From Aureispira anguillae (GTDB taxonomy: Bacteria > Bacteroidota > Bacteroidia > Chitinophagales > Saprospiraceae), in the NCBI RefSeq assembly GCF_026000115.1, contig NZ_AP026867.1:6921001-6985000 (forward strand): a DNA stretch of 64,000 nucleotides, in the 5' to 3' direction. The position numbers and the translations under genes are program-made. Positions 14,608 through 33,115 of this stretch are shown here, one piece after another. Each line of letters begins with the position of its first letter. Position 1 is the stretch's first letter. Under the pieces are notes generated by a model that ran no database searches, was not told the DNA's origin, and saw nothing but the letters and a program-made list of their open reading frames with translations.

Positions 14608-15984
14608 ATGGCAAAAGTACAAAAAGTATTTGCGTGTACCAGTTGTGGTACGACTTATTCTAAATGGGCAGGGCAGTGTAGTGCCTGCGAAGAGTGGAAT
14701 ACCATTCAAGAAGAGATTGTTGTTAAAGAGAGTCCTAAACAAGAGGCTAAAAAAATGTGGCGGAAGGGGACTAAGAAGGAAAAGCCTCGTCCCAAAAAAT
14801 TGGCTCAAATTGAAACGGGAACAACACAACGTAGAGCAACCCATGATGGGGAACTAAATAGAGTCTTGGGAGGTGGTATCGTGGAAGGGTCTATGGTCTT
14901 ATTGGGCGGAGAACCTGGAATCGGTAAATCAACCTTAATGTTACAGTTAGCCTTATCCTTGGATGCAAAAGTATTGTACATCTCTGGGGAAGAGAGCGAA
15001 GAACAAATAAAAATGCGTGCCAATCGTCTGGGAAAAACACCAGAGCATTGTTATATCATGTCTGATACTAGTTTGGCGAATGTCTTGATGCAGGCACAGT
15101 TGTTAGAGCCGAATATTTTAATTATCGATTCTATTCAAACCATTACTTCTGCTCATATAGAGTCAGCGCCAGGCAGTGTTTCACAAGTTCGAGAGTGTGC
15201 TACAGAGTTTCAGCGTTTTGCCAAAGAAAGTGGTGTTCCTGTATTTATAATAGGGCATATAACCAAAGAGGGAGCCATTGCAGGACCTAAAGTGCTAGAG
15301 CATATTGTGGATGTTGTTTTGCAGTTTGAGGGGGATCGAAATTATACTCATCGTATTTTGAGAACGATTAAGAATCGTTTTGGCTCTACTTCAGAATTGG
15401 GAATCTATGAAATGCAGGGAATTGGTCTAAGAGAGGTTTCTAATCCTTCAGAGCTGTTATTATCACAGAAAGAAGAAGATTTGAGCGGTTCTGCTATCGC
15501 AGCGACTTTGGAGGGAATTCGCCCGATGCTGATCGAGACACAGGCTTTGGTAAGTACAGCCGTTTATAGTTCTCCTCAGCGTTCTGCTACTGGCTTTGAT
15601 TTGCGTCGTCTGGGAATGTTATTGGCGGTACTGGAAAAACGTTGTGGTTTTCAATTTGCGAGTAATGATATTTTCTTGAACATCGCTGGTGGTATAAAAG
15701 TAAGTGATCCTGCTATTGATTTGGCAATTATTTCGGCCCTAATTTCTTCCTTAGAAGATGTGTCTTTGCCTAGTAATATTTGTTTTGCTGGAGAGATTGG
15801 TTTATCGGGGGAGATTCGTTCGGTACAGCGAGCAGAACAACGAATACAGGAGGCAAACCGTTTGGGTTTTGAACAAATCTTTGTTTCAAGGTTTAATATG
15901 AAAGGAATTGATCAAAAAAATTACGATATAGAAATTATTCCTGTTGGCAAGGTAGAAGAGTTGTACAACATCTTGTTTGCTTAA
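14608..15984 (+). CDS. radA: DNA repair protein RadA
   Basis: Encodes 458 residues, typical for RadA. The N-terminal C4 zinc finger (CTSC ... CSAC, residues 10-27), the Walker A GGEPGIGKST near residues 97-106, the Walker B IIDSIQT, the family motif KNRFGS near residue 250 and the Lon-protease-like C-terminal domain are all present. RadA is a DNA-dependent ATPase that drives branch migration in recombination repair. Single gene; the end of the operon on the other strand lies 42 bases downstream. Confidence 0.97.
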   Translation: MAKVQKVFACTSCGTTYSKWAGQCSACEEWNTIQEEIVVKESPKQEAKKMWRKGTKKEKPRPKKLAQIETGTTQRRATHDGELNRVLGGGIVEGSMVLLGGEPGIGKSTLMLQLALSLDAKVLYISGEESEEQIKMRANRLGKTPEHCYIMSDTSLANVLMQAQLLEPNILIIDSIQTITSAHIESAPGSVSQVRECATEFQRFAKESGVPVFIIGHITKEGAIAGPKVLEHIVDVVLQFEGDRNYTHRILRTIKNRFGSTSELGIYEMQGIGLREVSNPSELLLSQKEEDLSGSAIAATLEGIRPMLIETQALVSTAVYSSPQRSATGFDLRRLGMLLAVLEKRCGFQFASNDIFLNIAGGIKVSDPAIDLAIISALISSLEDVSLPSNICFAGEIGLSGEIRSVQRAEQRIQEANRLGFEQIFVSRFNMKGIDQKNYDIEIIPVGKVEELYNILFA

Positions 15985-16026: not shown

Positions 16027-16314
16027 CTATTGGCTCAATTGAGTCAAGGAGTCAATAAAATTTTTGAGATTGACCTCAATTGGAGCTTTTAGTCGAATGC
16101 GTAGTGTGTCATTTCCTTCAATCCCTTTTACATCAAGCTTTTTGTGTAGCCGAATCTTAAAAAATGGTCTAGCAAAATGAGGAAAATATTGTAAATCTCC
16201 TGTCTTACCTAAGGCATGGATTAAATCCGAACTGATGGCTTCTGACAAAAGGAGTTCCTTAACAGAAGAACCATCAAAACAGTCCTCAATATGTTTGATT
16301 TGAATTACAGTCAT
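16027..16314 (-). CDS. Small protein of unknown function, last gene of V4R/desulfurase operon
   Basis: Encodes 95 residues without signal peptide or recognisable family. A single Cys lies at residue 13, and the second half is a run of basic strands (FFKIRLHKKLDV, LRIRLKAPIEV). It begins 6 bases after the stop of the cysteine desulfurase-like gene, so it is almost certainly in the same transcript. A sulfur acceptor or partner role is only a guess from position. Confidence 0.7.
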   Translation of the reverse strand: MTVIQIKHIEDCFDGSSVKELLLSEAISSDLIHALGKTGDLQYFPHFARPFFKIRLHKKLDVKGIEGNDTLRIRLKAPIEVNLKNFIDSLTQLSQ

Positions 16315-16320
16315 GATGAA

Positions 16321-17475
16321 TTAAATGGTTAAGGTTAATATTTCTTTCATAGCTTGAAGAAAGGAGTTAATTTCCGCTTCTGTTGTAAAAAAAGAAGGGC
16401 TTATTCTAACGGTACCATAAGGGGCAGAGCCAATAGATTCGTGGATAAGAGGAGCACAATGTAAGCCTGTTCGAACAACAATATTATAGTTTTGCTCCAA
16501 TAAATAACCAATGTCTGAAACCTCCAACCCCTGAACAGAAAAAGACAATAAGGTGGACTGGAATGAATAATGCGCCGTATTGGGGTAAGATATAACATTA
16601 GGATACTGAGCTAAAAAATGCCTTATTTGGTAAACATAGTGCTGTATTTTTTGGCGAATATGCTCTATTCCTGTTGTCTTAATAAATTTAACCCCTTCGT
16701 AGAGTGAAGTGATCCCTAGGTAATTAGGAGTACCTGCTTCATAATAAATAGGCAGGCTGCTTGGTTGATACAAATAATCACTTTTAGAACCTGTCCCGCC
16801 AATTTTAAGTGGTTTTAAGTGAAGCCCTTTTTTTATATAAATACCTCCTATTCCAGCGATGCCATACAAAGCCTTGTGTCCCGTAAATGCTAGAATATCA
16901 ATTTGCATTTCTTGAACATCAATAGGATACAAGCCTGCACTTTGAGAGGCATCAACAATAAACGGGATATTTTTTTTTGCGAGTGCTGTACCGATGGTTT
17001 TGAGATCATTAAGAGCACCCGTTACATTAGAACAATGATTGAGAATTACAGCGGCAGTTGTAGGGCGAAGCTCATTTTTTATGGCGTTCCAATTGATTTG
17101 CCCAAGAGAATTGCTTGGGACAATACTTAGGTTAATTGTTTGGTTCCGTTCTAGTGTTTTTAACAATCTCAGGACAGAATTATGTTCCATATTGGAAGTA
17201 ATAATATGTTTACCTTCAAGTTCTAGCCCCTTGATCGCTAAATTTAGAGACTCGGTAGCGCCAGAAGTAAAAACAATCTGCTCGGAATGAGGAACGTTAA
17301 ACAATTGAGCAAGGATTGTTCGACACTCCTTGCTCAATGAATTAGAACCAGAGCCAAAGCCGTTGCGAAGAGCATGAATCGGCGGAACCATCAATGACGC
17401 ATTGACCGCCTGCAATACATTAGGCGGTTTAGGAAAACTGGTGGCAGCATTGTTCAAATAAATTAATTCCTTCAT
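16321..17475 (-). CDS. Cysteine desulfurase-like PLP enzyme (aminotransferase class V)
   Basis: Encodes 384 residues from the ATG at 17475; an in-frame TTG sits at 17490 but the ATG gives the usual MKELIYLNNAATSFPKPP-like start. Class V features: YLNNAAT at the N-terminus, the PLP-binding lysine in TGHKALYG, and the catalytic-loop TGLHCAP with the Cys used by desulfurases. The family is closest in appearance to the cysteine desulfurase family protein type. It may release sulfur from cysteine, or act on a related amino acid. It is the fourth gene of a five-gene minus-strand operon with two V4R-like proteins. Confidence 0.85.
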   Translation of the reverse strand: MKELIYLNNAATSFPKPPNVLQAVNASLMVPPIHALRNGFGSGSNSLSKECRTILAQLFNVPHSEQIVFTSGATESLNLAIKGLELEGKHIITSNMEHNSVLRLLKTLERNQTINLSIVPSNSLGQINWNAIKNELRPTTAAVILNHCSNVTGALNDLKTIGTALAKKNIPFIVDASQSAGLYPIDVQEMQIDILAFTGHKALYGIAGIGGIYIKKGLHLKPLKIGGTGSKSDYLYQPSSLPIYYEAGTPNYLGITSLYEGVKFIKTTGIEHIRQKIQHYVYQIRHFLAQYPNVISYPNTAHYSFQSTLLSFSVQGLEVSDIGYLLEQNYNIVVRTGLHCAPLIHESIGSAPYGTVRISPSFFTTEAEINSFLQAMKEILTLTI

Positions 17476-17492
17476 GGTAAATTTGCCCAATT

Positions 17493-18107
17493 CTAGCGAT
17501 CTTCAGAAGCTTTTGTTACGATAAATTCGCCATAGGAATCACCACATTCTATTCCTTTTATCTGTTGGCATTCAAAAGTGCCAATGGGCTTCCCTTTTGG
17601 ATCATATTCACCTGCATAAGCAAGTTCCATAAACGCTGCACAAACGCCCCGAATCATATAAGCGCTCATTTTGGGAGAAGCACCAAATTCAACAATATCA
17701 GATTCATAGTAATTATAGGCTCGAACGACCATTTTTTCATTGGGTATAAGTTCAACGATTTCGGTATTGGCCCAACCCCAAGCGGTAAAAACGGCAAAGG
17801 CACCGTGTAGAATATCTTCGGGGATCTTTTCTAACATGGGCGCAACAACAGCGTTCCATTCATCAGAAGTAATAATCCCATAACCTGTATGATAGCCACA
17901 TTCGTGAGCGGCATTATAAAGGAGATATTCCTTGTAATACAGCATTTCATCAGACGATTGAGAAGTTAGTCGTTCTGCAAAAGCATTCCAAAAATCGGTT
18001 GGTAATTGATTAACGATTACATTAAATCCTTCAATAAGACCATTTTCATCTGGTAAAATGGCTATTTGAGACATTTGATCAATTATTTTTTTTCTATCTA
18101 TTGCCAT
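17493..18107 (-). CDS. V4R (4-vinyl reductase)-like protein
   Basis: Encodes 204 residues, cytoplasmic. The C-terminal third has the V4R-type ending: Cys180 and Cys188 flanking QQIKGIE, followed by a Gly-Asp and a final strand FIVTKA. The middle contains HECGYHTGYGI (residues 68-78) and an AWGWANTEIVEL strand. V4R domains bind small hydrophobic ligands and occur in BchJ and in activator proteins. The exact function here is unknown. The gene starts 1 base after the next upstream V4R-like gene and ends 17 bases before the desulfurase-like gene. Confidence 0.65.
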   Translation of the reverse strand: MAIDRKKIIDQMSQIAILPDENGLIEGFNVIVNQLPTDFWNAFAERLTSQSSDEMLYYKEYLLYNAAHECGYHTGYGIITSDEWNAVVAPMLEKIPEDILHGAFAVFTAWGWANTEIVELIPNEKMVVRAYNYYESDIVEFGASPKMSAYMIRGVCAAFMELAYAGEYDPKGKPIGTFECQQIKGIECGDSYGEFIVTKASEDR

Positions 18108-18108
18108 T

Positions 18109-18639
18109 TTATTTTTTTGTTACTTTAAAAATTGAGCTTGCTGCACCCATTACAATACTTTGTGTCTCGAAGGCATTAAAAGAGCCGCTTGGTAGTCCAA
18201 AACAAACTTCAAAAAGTGCTTCTATAAATCCTCCTGTAATGTAATTAATTGGTTTGTCGTATTCCCCCCATTTTTTGATCCAACCACTGTCTGTATGAGA
18301 GAATGGAAGTTCTACAAGACCACTATACTTACCAATAAATTTTACCTCCATAGACCCAAGACCTAGGAGTGAATAATATTGGGAACCAATGGCAACTTTA
18401 TCTTGAAGTGTTGTATGGTTGGGATGCTTAGAAAAGTAACTTAAAAGAACCGCTCGAAAACTGTCTCGTGCGCATTCTTTGAGCAGGTCTGTTTCTCCTG
18501 CATCTAGCGCCAATTGAGTGTATAAAGAGGTGTAATGATGACAATGTAAAACAGACAAAATACCATTGATATAATGCCTATTTGTTTTTTGATCAAAGTG
18601 ATGATCGTATTCTATTTCATTTTGTACAACAATAGCCAT
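18109..18639 (-). CDS. Second V4R-like protein lacking the cysteines
   Basis: Encodes 176 residues, cytoplasmic. It appears to be a diverged relative of the adjacent protein: the same layout of an N-terminal helical part, a GSMEVKFIGKYSG strand pair, and an ETQSIVMGAASSIFKV ending in place of the Cys-containing V4R tail. N-terminal HCHHY (near residue 33) could be metal binding. Pairing of a Cys-bearing and a Cys-less V4R-like protein suggests a heteromeric complex, which is inference. Gap to the downstream gene is a single base. Confidence 0.6.
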   Translation of the reverse strand: MAIVVQNEIEYDHHFDQKTNRHYINGILSVLHCHHYTSLYTQLALDAGETDLLKECARDSFRAVLLSYFSKHPNHTTLQDKVAIGSQYYSLLGLGSMEVKFIGKYSGLVELPFSHTDSGWIKKWGEYDKPINYITGGFIEALFEVCFGLPSGSFNAFETQSIVMGAASSIFKVTKK

Positions 18640-18648
18640 AGTTAATTT

Positions 18649-18831
18649 TTATTTGAATTCTTTTCTTAGTTCATTCATTGCTTGATCAAAAACTGCCAAC
18701 ATTTCGGGGGAATCCTCTGTAAGTACCGCTTTAGCACTTGGGGTTTTGGTAATTACAGCAAGCCGTATTTTGGCTTTAAGTCCACCCATTTTTTGGGCTT
18801 CGTCGTAGAATTGGATTAGTTTTTCTGCCAT
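18649..18831 (-). CDS. Small helical protein, first gene of the V4R/desulfurase operon
   Basis: Encodes 60 residues, predicted mostly helical (AEKLIQFYDEAQKM and MLAVFDQAMNELRKEF flanking a short strand AVIT). I do not recognise it. The tight 9-base gap to the following V4R-like gene, the good start, and its place at the head of the operon support a real gene. It may be a partner subunit of the V4R-like proteins. Confidence 0.65.
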   Translation of the reverse strand: MAEKLIQFYDEAQKMGGLKAKIRLAVITKTPSAKAVLTEDSPEMLAVFDQAMNELRKEFK

Positions 18832-32932: not shown

Positions 32933-33007
32933 TGGGTGATGAGGGATTCGAACCCCCGACCCTCTCGGTGTAAGCGAGATGCTCTGAACCAGCTGAGCTA
33001 ATCACCC
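32933..33007 (-). tRNA. tRNA-Val (UAC anticodon), copy 1
   Basis: Reading the minus strand gives a 7-bp acceptor stem (GGGTGAT with ATCACCC), a D arm with GCTC and GAGC, an anticodon arm TCTCG with loop CTTACAC (anticodon TAC) and a T arm with TTCGAAT loop. CCA is not encoded. It is identical in sequence to the second copy 33 bases away, in the same transcript. Confidence 0.97.
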
Positions 33008-33040: not shown

Positions 33041-33115
33041 TGGGTGATGAGGGATTCGAACCCCCGACCCTCTCGGTGTAAGCGAGATGCTCTGAACCAG
33101 CTGAGCTAATCACCC
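33041..33115 (-). tRNA. tRNA-Val (UAC anticodon), copy 2
   Basis: Identical to the copy at 32933-33007, with the same cloverleaf and anticodon TAC. It is the promoter-proximal member of the pair. Confidence 0.97.

Follow-up and report, generated by a model that had tools for sequence, protein, structure and literature searches.

A conserved five-gene operon of Aureispira combines two V4R-like proteins with a cysteine desulfurase-type enzyme and adjoins chemoreceptor genes in some other lineages

Related systems

The V4R domains of PoxR, MopR and DmpR are parts of single-chain transcription activators that also contain ATPase and DNA-binding parts. V4R domains in general are thought to bind ligands and to signal to effectors, and the V4R proteins described so far, which consist of single or fused domains, are of uncertain role (according to the available part of PMC2253512). 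In MsvR, a redox regulator of methanogens, V4R cysteines affect redox-dependent DNA binding, and a C-terminal cluster of three cysteines recurs in several V4R domains, as C206, C232 and C240 in MsvR (PMC3729527, in its accessible sections) and likewise in PoxR and MopR (PMC5847659, in extracts). A V4R-type fold is also used by the TRAPP subunits Bet3, Trs33 and Trs31, which assemble as homodimers or heterodimers of paralogues (PMC2253512, same part). Among enzymes of the family TIGR01977, EF_2568 belongs to a selenium cluster that includes a SirA-like protein (PMC2276186, in the portion available).

Here we describe an operon of Aureispira anguillae, located in a 64,000-nucleotide stretch (the window) of a 7.8-Mb genome, that combines two V4R-like proteins (V4R-1 and V4R-2) with an enzyme of the TIGR01977 family (CD) and two small proteins (p60 and p95). 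The AlphaFold model of V4R-1 (pLDDT, 90.9) aligns over its full length with the sensor domains of PoxR, MopR and DmpR (TM, 0.73–0.77; best E, 1.4e-7). Unlike those activators, however, the Aureispira proteins are two stand-alone V4Rs that lack ATPase and DNA-binding parts and have a His/Cys motif of their own. MsvR similarly has a V4R domain in which conserved cysteines matter, but it is a homodimer that acts on DNA, and a desulfurase partner is not mentioned in the sections of PMC3729527 that we could consult. The V4R-1 model also has a weaker structural match to Bet3-type TRAPP subunits, which differ in serving eukaryotic vesicle tethering. Whereas the cluster of EF_2568 has the SirA-like protein, the recurring small partner of the enzyme in the unit described here is p95, and the window genome has no SelD that reaches its cutoff. 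In the searched literature on V4R domains, TIGR01977, desulfurase or chemoreceptor operons and Aureispira chemotaxis, including the available parts of PMC12826048, PMC2276186, PMC2253512, PMC3729527 and PMC5847659, we found neither a description of this unit nor a paper that joins V4R with a cysteine desulfurase.

The operon and its proteins

The five genes form a set on the minus strand of the window, from 18831 to 16027, with gaps of 9, 1, 17 and 6 bp in the ORF listing, as an earlier note made from the DNA letters had stated. The same order recurs in two other genomes of the genus: V4R-2 is found in three of its nine genomes (G000, G003 and G008), in each case with the same five genes similarly arranged. 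No minus-strand gene is listed in the 583 bases upstream of the operon, and the opposite-strand gene downstream (14608–15984) is, judging from its sequence, presumably radA-like. The operon has a G+C content of 37.6%, compared with 35.7% for the window, and V4R-2 has no plasmid match; we therefore rejected the idea that it is plasmid cargo. A defence system was rejected as well, given that the PADLOC matches of CD are limited to the desulfurases SspA and DndA and that the remaining four proteins have none.

V4R-1 (18109–18639, minus strand; 176 amino acids) and V4R-2 (17493–18107, minus strand; 204 amino acids) were both called V4R-like in the earlier note, which proposed a check against the Pfam V4R profile (PF02830). 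Relatives of the two proteins do match this profile, whereas the window proteins themselves have no match at E values of up to 10, a search in which filters remove most matches above 0.1. At E values of up to 1, the V4R profile is matched by 4 of 17 V4R-1 members (best, 8.3e-12) and by 2 of 18 V4R-2 members (best, 3.2e-7). Compared with solved structures, the V4R-1 profile matches MJ1460 (E, 0.0038; TM of the model, 0.51) and MopR (E, 0.03); no match was found for the V4R-2 profile. The two proteins align with each other (blastp E, 0.002; profile–profile probability, 93%), and we regard them, on sequence grounds, as remote relatives. The V4R fold is practically certain, as predicted by profile and model for V4R-1 and by homology for V4R-2, and the assignment in the earlier note is borne out.

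The same note had described one of the pair as having cysteines and the other as having none; this was mistaken. Both contain cysteines, of which one is invariant in each protein: C33 in V4R-1 (17 of 17 rows) and C70 in V4R-2 (18 of 18 rows). C33 is part of a His-Cys-His-His-Tyr motif (H32-C33-H34-H35-Y36) that, together with S114-H115 and G119-W120, is invariant throughout the V4R-1 alignment. In V4R-2, G71 and T74 are also invariant, and H73 is conserved in all rows but one. The C-terminal three-cysteine cluster of several V4R domains is absent from V4R-1 across its 17-row alignment; the window V4R-2 has C156, C180 and C188, yet these three vary across the 18 rows.

CD (16321–17475, minus strand) is a class-V PLP enzyme of 384 amino acids when read from the ATG at 17475, the start from which residues are numbered here; the TTG start chosen by the ORF tool gives 389. 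It scores 395.2 bits against NCBIfam TIGR01977 ('cysteine desulfurase family'; cutoff, 377), in agreement with the type assigned in the earlier note. K201 and C340, the latter in the sequence GLHCAP, are invariant in 12 of 12 rows, and we take them, by family, to be the catalytic lysine and cysteine. By these features CD is an enzyme of the cysteine desulfurase type, predicted to release sulfur from cysteine.

The first and last genes of the operon encode p60 (18649–18831, minus strand; 60 amino acids) and p95 (16027–16314, minus strand; 95 amino acids), which had rightly been described as belonging to no recognized family: searches of Pfam, NCBIfam and PADLOC gave no meaningful match for either, or for the 176- and 204-residue V4R proteins. 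Relatives of p60 occur in 14 of the 18 lineages that carry the unit (see below), with G16, R23, D40 and E54 invariant in 13 rows. The AlphaFold model of p95 (pLDDT, 94.5) is of an alpha/beta protein without a confident PDB match, and C12 is invariant in 14 of 14 rows. The p95 gene lies inside the locus in 14 of 18 lineages; a further lineage (L022) has it at another place in the genome, and it was not found in the genomes of L028 and L030. It is probably the partner or the sulfur acceptor of CD.

Distribution and gene order

A pattern scan of one genome per species across 84,980 species returned 17 loci, and a genome search added one more (L033/L081). With Aureispira counted once, the unit occurs in 18 lineages with ten phylum labels: Bacteroidota, Ignavibacteriota, Coatesiibacteriota, Pseudomonadota, Omnitrophota, Planctomycetota, candidate division KSB1, Thermodesulfobacteriota, Eiseniibacteriota and Armatimonadota. 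Of the 17 named records, 16 are metagenome bins; several share a source study and some lie on short contigs, so that an individual label may be in error. The search of other genomes for this neighbourhood, as proposed in the earlier note, found the unit conserved; that the five genes together form a conserved unit is practically certain, and we rejected chance or a single-genome oddity because the unit recurs in other lineages.

V4R-1 lies beside V4R-2, or is fused to it, in 17 of the 18 lineages, the exception (L026) being cut by a contig end. The two form one fused chain in a Cyclobacteriaceae metagenome-assembled genome, and two more-distant genomes of family f51, which are outside the 18-lineage count, have both V4R domains in one chain of 425–439 residues. 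The neighbours of the fused forms in L006 and L007 (143–170 and 204–231 amino acids) were considered as counterparts of p95 and p60 and rejected, with profile-comparison probabilities of 0.1 and 0.2%. Three gene orders were observed: p60-V4R1-V4R2-CD-p95, CD-p95-p60-V4R1-V4R2 and, in L029, p95-V4R1-V4R2-CD.

The unit is rare. Within the phylum (395 genomes), a narrow V4R-2 profile has five matches: the window genome, G407, both f51 genomes and a fifth that covers only 40 residues (E, 0.008) and has an internal stop. In one class, a wide profile matched 3 of 197 genomes. Outside the genus, the highest V4R-2 identity to Aureispira is 83%, to an Ignavibacteria bin. In the V4R-2 tree, which has good support for only 5 of its 16 inner branches, Aureispira belongs to a ten-member group that is itself supported and that also contains Ignavibacteriota, Coatesiibacteriota, Pseudomonadota and Thermodesulfobacteriota; the other Bacteroidota row is far off. 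The high identity across phyla and this grouping speak for movement of the unit between lineages.

Chemoreceptor and kinase neighbours

In 6 of the 18 lineages (L019, L020, L021, L023, L024 and L081, the last located only after the receptor pattern had been noticed), the unit has a chemoreceptor gene (Pfam MCPsignal) as its immediate neighbour, with both in the same orientation. Under random placement, 0.16 such cases are expected and the probability of six or more is 3.4e-9, in a model that uses per-genome receptor counts and 2 kb on either side, with the count for L081 set deliberately high at 20 (real count, 6). In L015, a CheW gene precedes the unit and a Cache-HAMP protein that is ended by the contig follows it; this protein shares 59% identity with the receptor of L081 across 109 residues, and its inclusion brings the number of lineages with an adjoining receptor to seven. 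No receptor adjoins the unit in the other 11 of 18 lineages, including Aureispira, and three of these loci (L017, L018 and L026) end at contig ends. The earlier note had missed the link to chemoreceptors and kinases.

Some of the adjoining receptors appear to have no sensor of their own. Pfam finds no sensory domain in those of L019, L021 and L023; about 75 and 140 residues precede the first Pfam domain in L019 and L023, respectively, and a long unassigned region precedes the signalling domain in L021. Other signalling genes occur near the unit elsewhere. In L027, CheA lies at a distance of 1.5 kb and a receptor at 4.7 kb on the other strand; L028 has a roadblock protein and a receiver protein behind V4R-2; in L030, the fused gene is followed after 0.3 kb by a histidine kinase; and L025 has a large GAF/PAS kinase 2.6 kb on. 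Chemoreceptors are encoded in 16 of the 18 genomes searched; there are none in those of L025 and L030, in which sensor kinases stand near the unit. The window genome encodes two chemoreceptors, one of them beside CheW and with a globin domain, and neither adjoins the unit.

Across the loci compared, receptors (7 loci) and proteins with receiver or kinase domains (5 loci) are the exceptions among flanking families, the others being found in at most two lineages. The receptor linkage, which is new here, points to sensing, and the unit is likely to be linked to signalling. Co-occurrence at the genome level adds little: in one class, receptors are present in all 3 genomes with V4R-2 compared with 87 of 197 overall, which is uninformative because receptors are common in the class, and among relatives of the window genome they are present in all 3 genomes with V4R-2 and in 3 of 37 without, a weak signal given that the three are close kin.

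Proposed function and alternatives

We propose that the V4R pair is a cytosolic sensory input for chemosensory or kinase signalling that is armed by a dedicated desulfurase and carrier, a reading to which we assign a probability of roughly 0.42. It is suggested by the view that V4R domains bind ligands, together with the receptors that adjoin the pair, some apparently sensorless. V4R-1 and V4R-2 would most likely form a cytosolic heterodimer, because the pair is one fused chain in some lineages. A small ligand, a metal or a sulfur adduct at the His-Cys-His-His-Tyr motif of V4R-1 and at Cys70 of V4R-2 may alter this dimer, which would signal to the chemoreceptor array in genomes that encode one and otherwise to a histidine kinase or roadblock protein; we infer that the signal runs in this direction. 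CD would take sulfur from cysteine, and Cys12 of p95 would carry it on to the V4R pair, where it may either build the sensing centre (Fe-S or thiolate) or be the signal itself, as a persulfide state, and p60 is probably a structural linker. Sulfur or metal chemistry is proposed mainly because cysteine or histidine is invariant in both V4R proteins and p95, and the relay of sulfur to the pair is a tentative element of the model. That the unit represents a new class of intracellular chemosensory input, in which a sulfur-loaded V4R heterodimer encoded by a five-gene cassette passed between phyla reports cysteine, sulfane-sulfur or redox state to receptor arrays or kinases, is more doubtful. A conserved two-V4R unit with its own desulfurase, in several lineages next to chemoreceptors, some of them without a recognized sensor domain, is a directly testable set of partners, which bears on what might arm a V4R sensor in the cytosol, on its signalling partner and on whether sulfur or redox state enters chemotaxis by this route. 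It also gives context to families that are unnamed in the searched libraries, namely p60, p95 and this branch of V4R.

Alternatively, the unit may be a pathway of the kind suggested in the earlier note, for sulfur transfer or cofactor maturation, and have no sensory role. Sulfur would then come from CD and p95 and be used by the V4R pair, acting as a scaffold or an enzyme. The CD–p95 pair stands alone, away from V4R genes, in three Ignavibacteria-class genomes (G395, G407 and G543), the invariant cysteines of p95 and both V4R proteins would suit such a pathway, and one enzyme with a V4R-like fold, ATC hydrolase, cleaves a C–S bond (PMC5847659, in extracts). However, no ATC hydrolase profile is present among the 8 and 9 Pfam families found for V4R members at E values of up to 1, chemoreceptors, CheW, kinases or a roadblock protein are near the unit in many lineages, and beyond the receptors and the receiver and kinase proteins no flanking family recurs in more than two lineages. 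We consider this alternative unlikely.

The V4R pair may instead sense a small organic ligand, phenol-like or lipid, with CD a passenger that serves general sulfur or Fe-S needs. The closest solved folds are indeed those of phenol sensors, and the link between CD and the pair is not strict: some units lack CD, and some genomes without the unit have it. No CD of this subfamily was found in the genomes of L028 and L030 or in the two f51 genomes with fused V4Rs. In one class, CD (E below 1e-90) is present in all 3 genomes with V4R-2 and in 11 of 194 without a V4R-2 match, counts that we assume to rest on the same draw of 197 genomes. Against a passenger role, 12 of the 18 lineages have CD in the locus itself, where the genes follow one of three orders. 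CD is present somewhere in the genome in 16 of 18, being unlinked in L016, L018, L022 and L024 (E below 1e-120). The next-best listed enzyme in these four genomes reaches at most 5e-71, apart from a second such CD in the genome of L024; the assignment in L024 is unsure, as both of its CD genes fall outside the main clade, and the linked CD of L029 does likewise. CD also co-varies with V4R-2: over 13 linked loci, their pairwise identities correlate with r = 0.64, a value reached in none of 5,000 permutations, in a comparison limited to genes of the unit (V4R-1 against V4R-2, r = 0.94). In addition, the binding of a hydrocarbon would presumably not need an invariant Cys/His motif. An organic-ligand sensor with an incidental CD is quite unlikely in our view.

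TIGR01977 and EF_2568 were proposed to represent a probable selenocysteine lyase of gene clusters for selenium-dependent hydroxylases (PMC2276186, available portion). A selenium system, in which CD would be a selenocysteine lyase that serves selenophosphate, is very improbable here: CD reaches 312 bits against the selenocysteine lyase SclA model (NF040779), below its cutoff of 525, and a SelD that passes its own cutoff is encoded in only 8 of the 19 unit-bearing genomes, the window genome not among them. On the SelD count, we rejected a SelD-dependent form of this system.

Separately, G395, one of the genomes with a stand-alone CD–p95 pair, is not among the V4R-2 matches. The stand-alone pair is placed after a gene that we take to be pheS-like and before one that is presumably carboxyltransferase-like.

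The pair formed by the class-V PLP enzyme (TIGR01977 cysteine desulfurase family) and the 95-residue protein with the invariant Cys12 is located away from V4R genes in three Ignavibacteria-class genomes (L085:5652-7102, L086:6768-8203 and L087:4016-5448), flanked by what we take to be pheS-like and carboxyltransferase-like genes. This separate placement suggests a possible sulfur pair with a role of its own.

Where the two V4R-like proteins are fused into one chain (L010:8091-10556 and L011:8245-10541), the neighbours are proteins of 204-231 and 143-170 amino acids common to both genomes; profile comparison revealed no likeness of these to p60 or p95.

A chemoreceptor of any kind was found in only 6 of the 40 relatives searched. 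Inspection by eye of the chemoreceptor adjoining the unit at L021:3854-5515 shows the sequence CAECH before the signalling domain, a CxxCH motif of the kind seen in c-type haem sensors. The Aureispira genome itself encodes, outside the window, a 787-amino-acid chemoreceptor (G000:C1:605636-607999, equivalent to L082:5637-8000) that carries PAS domains as well as a bacterial globin domain at its N-terminus (PF01152, 1.7e-11). CheW (Pfam) lies behind it, followed by CheY-, CheB-, CheA- and CheR-like genes assigned by eye.

Two equally scoring tRNA genes lie side by side on the minus strand of the window (32933-33007 and 33041-33115).
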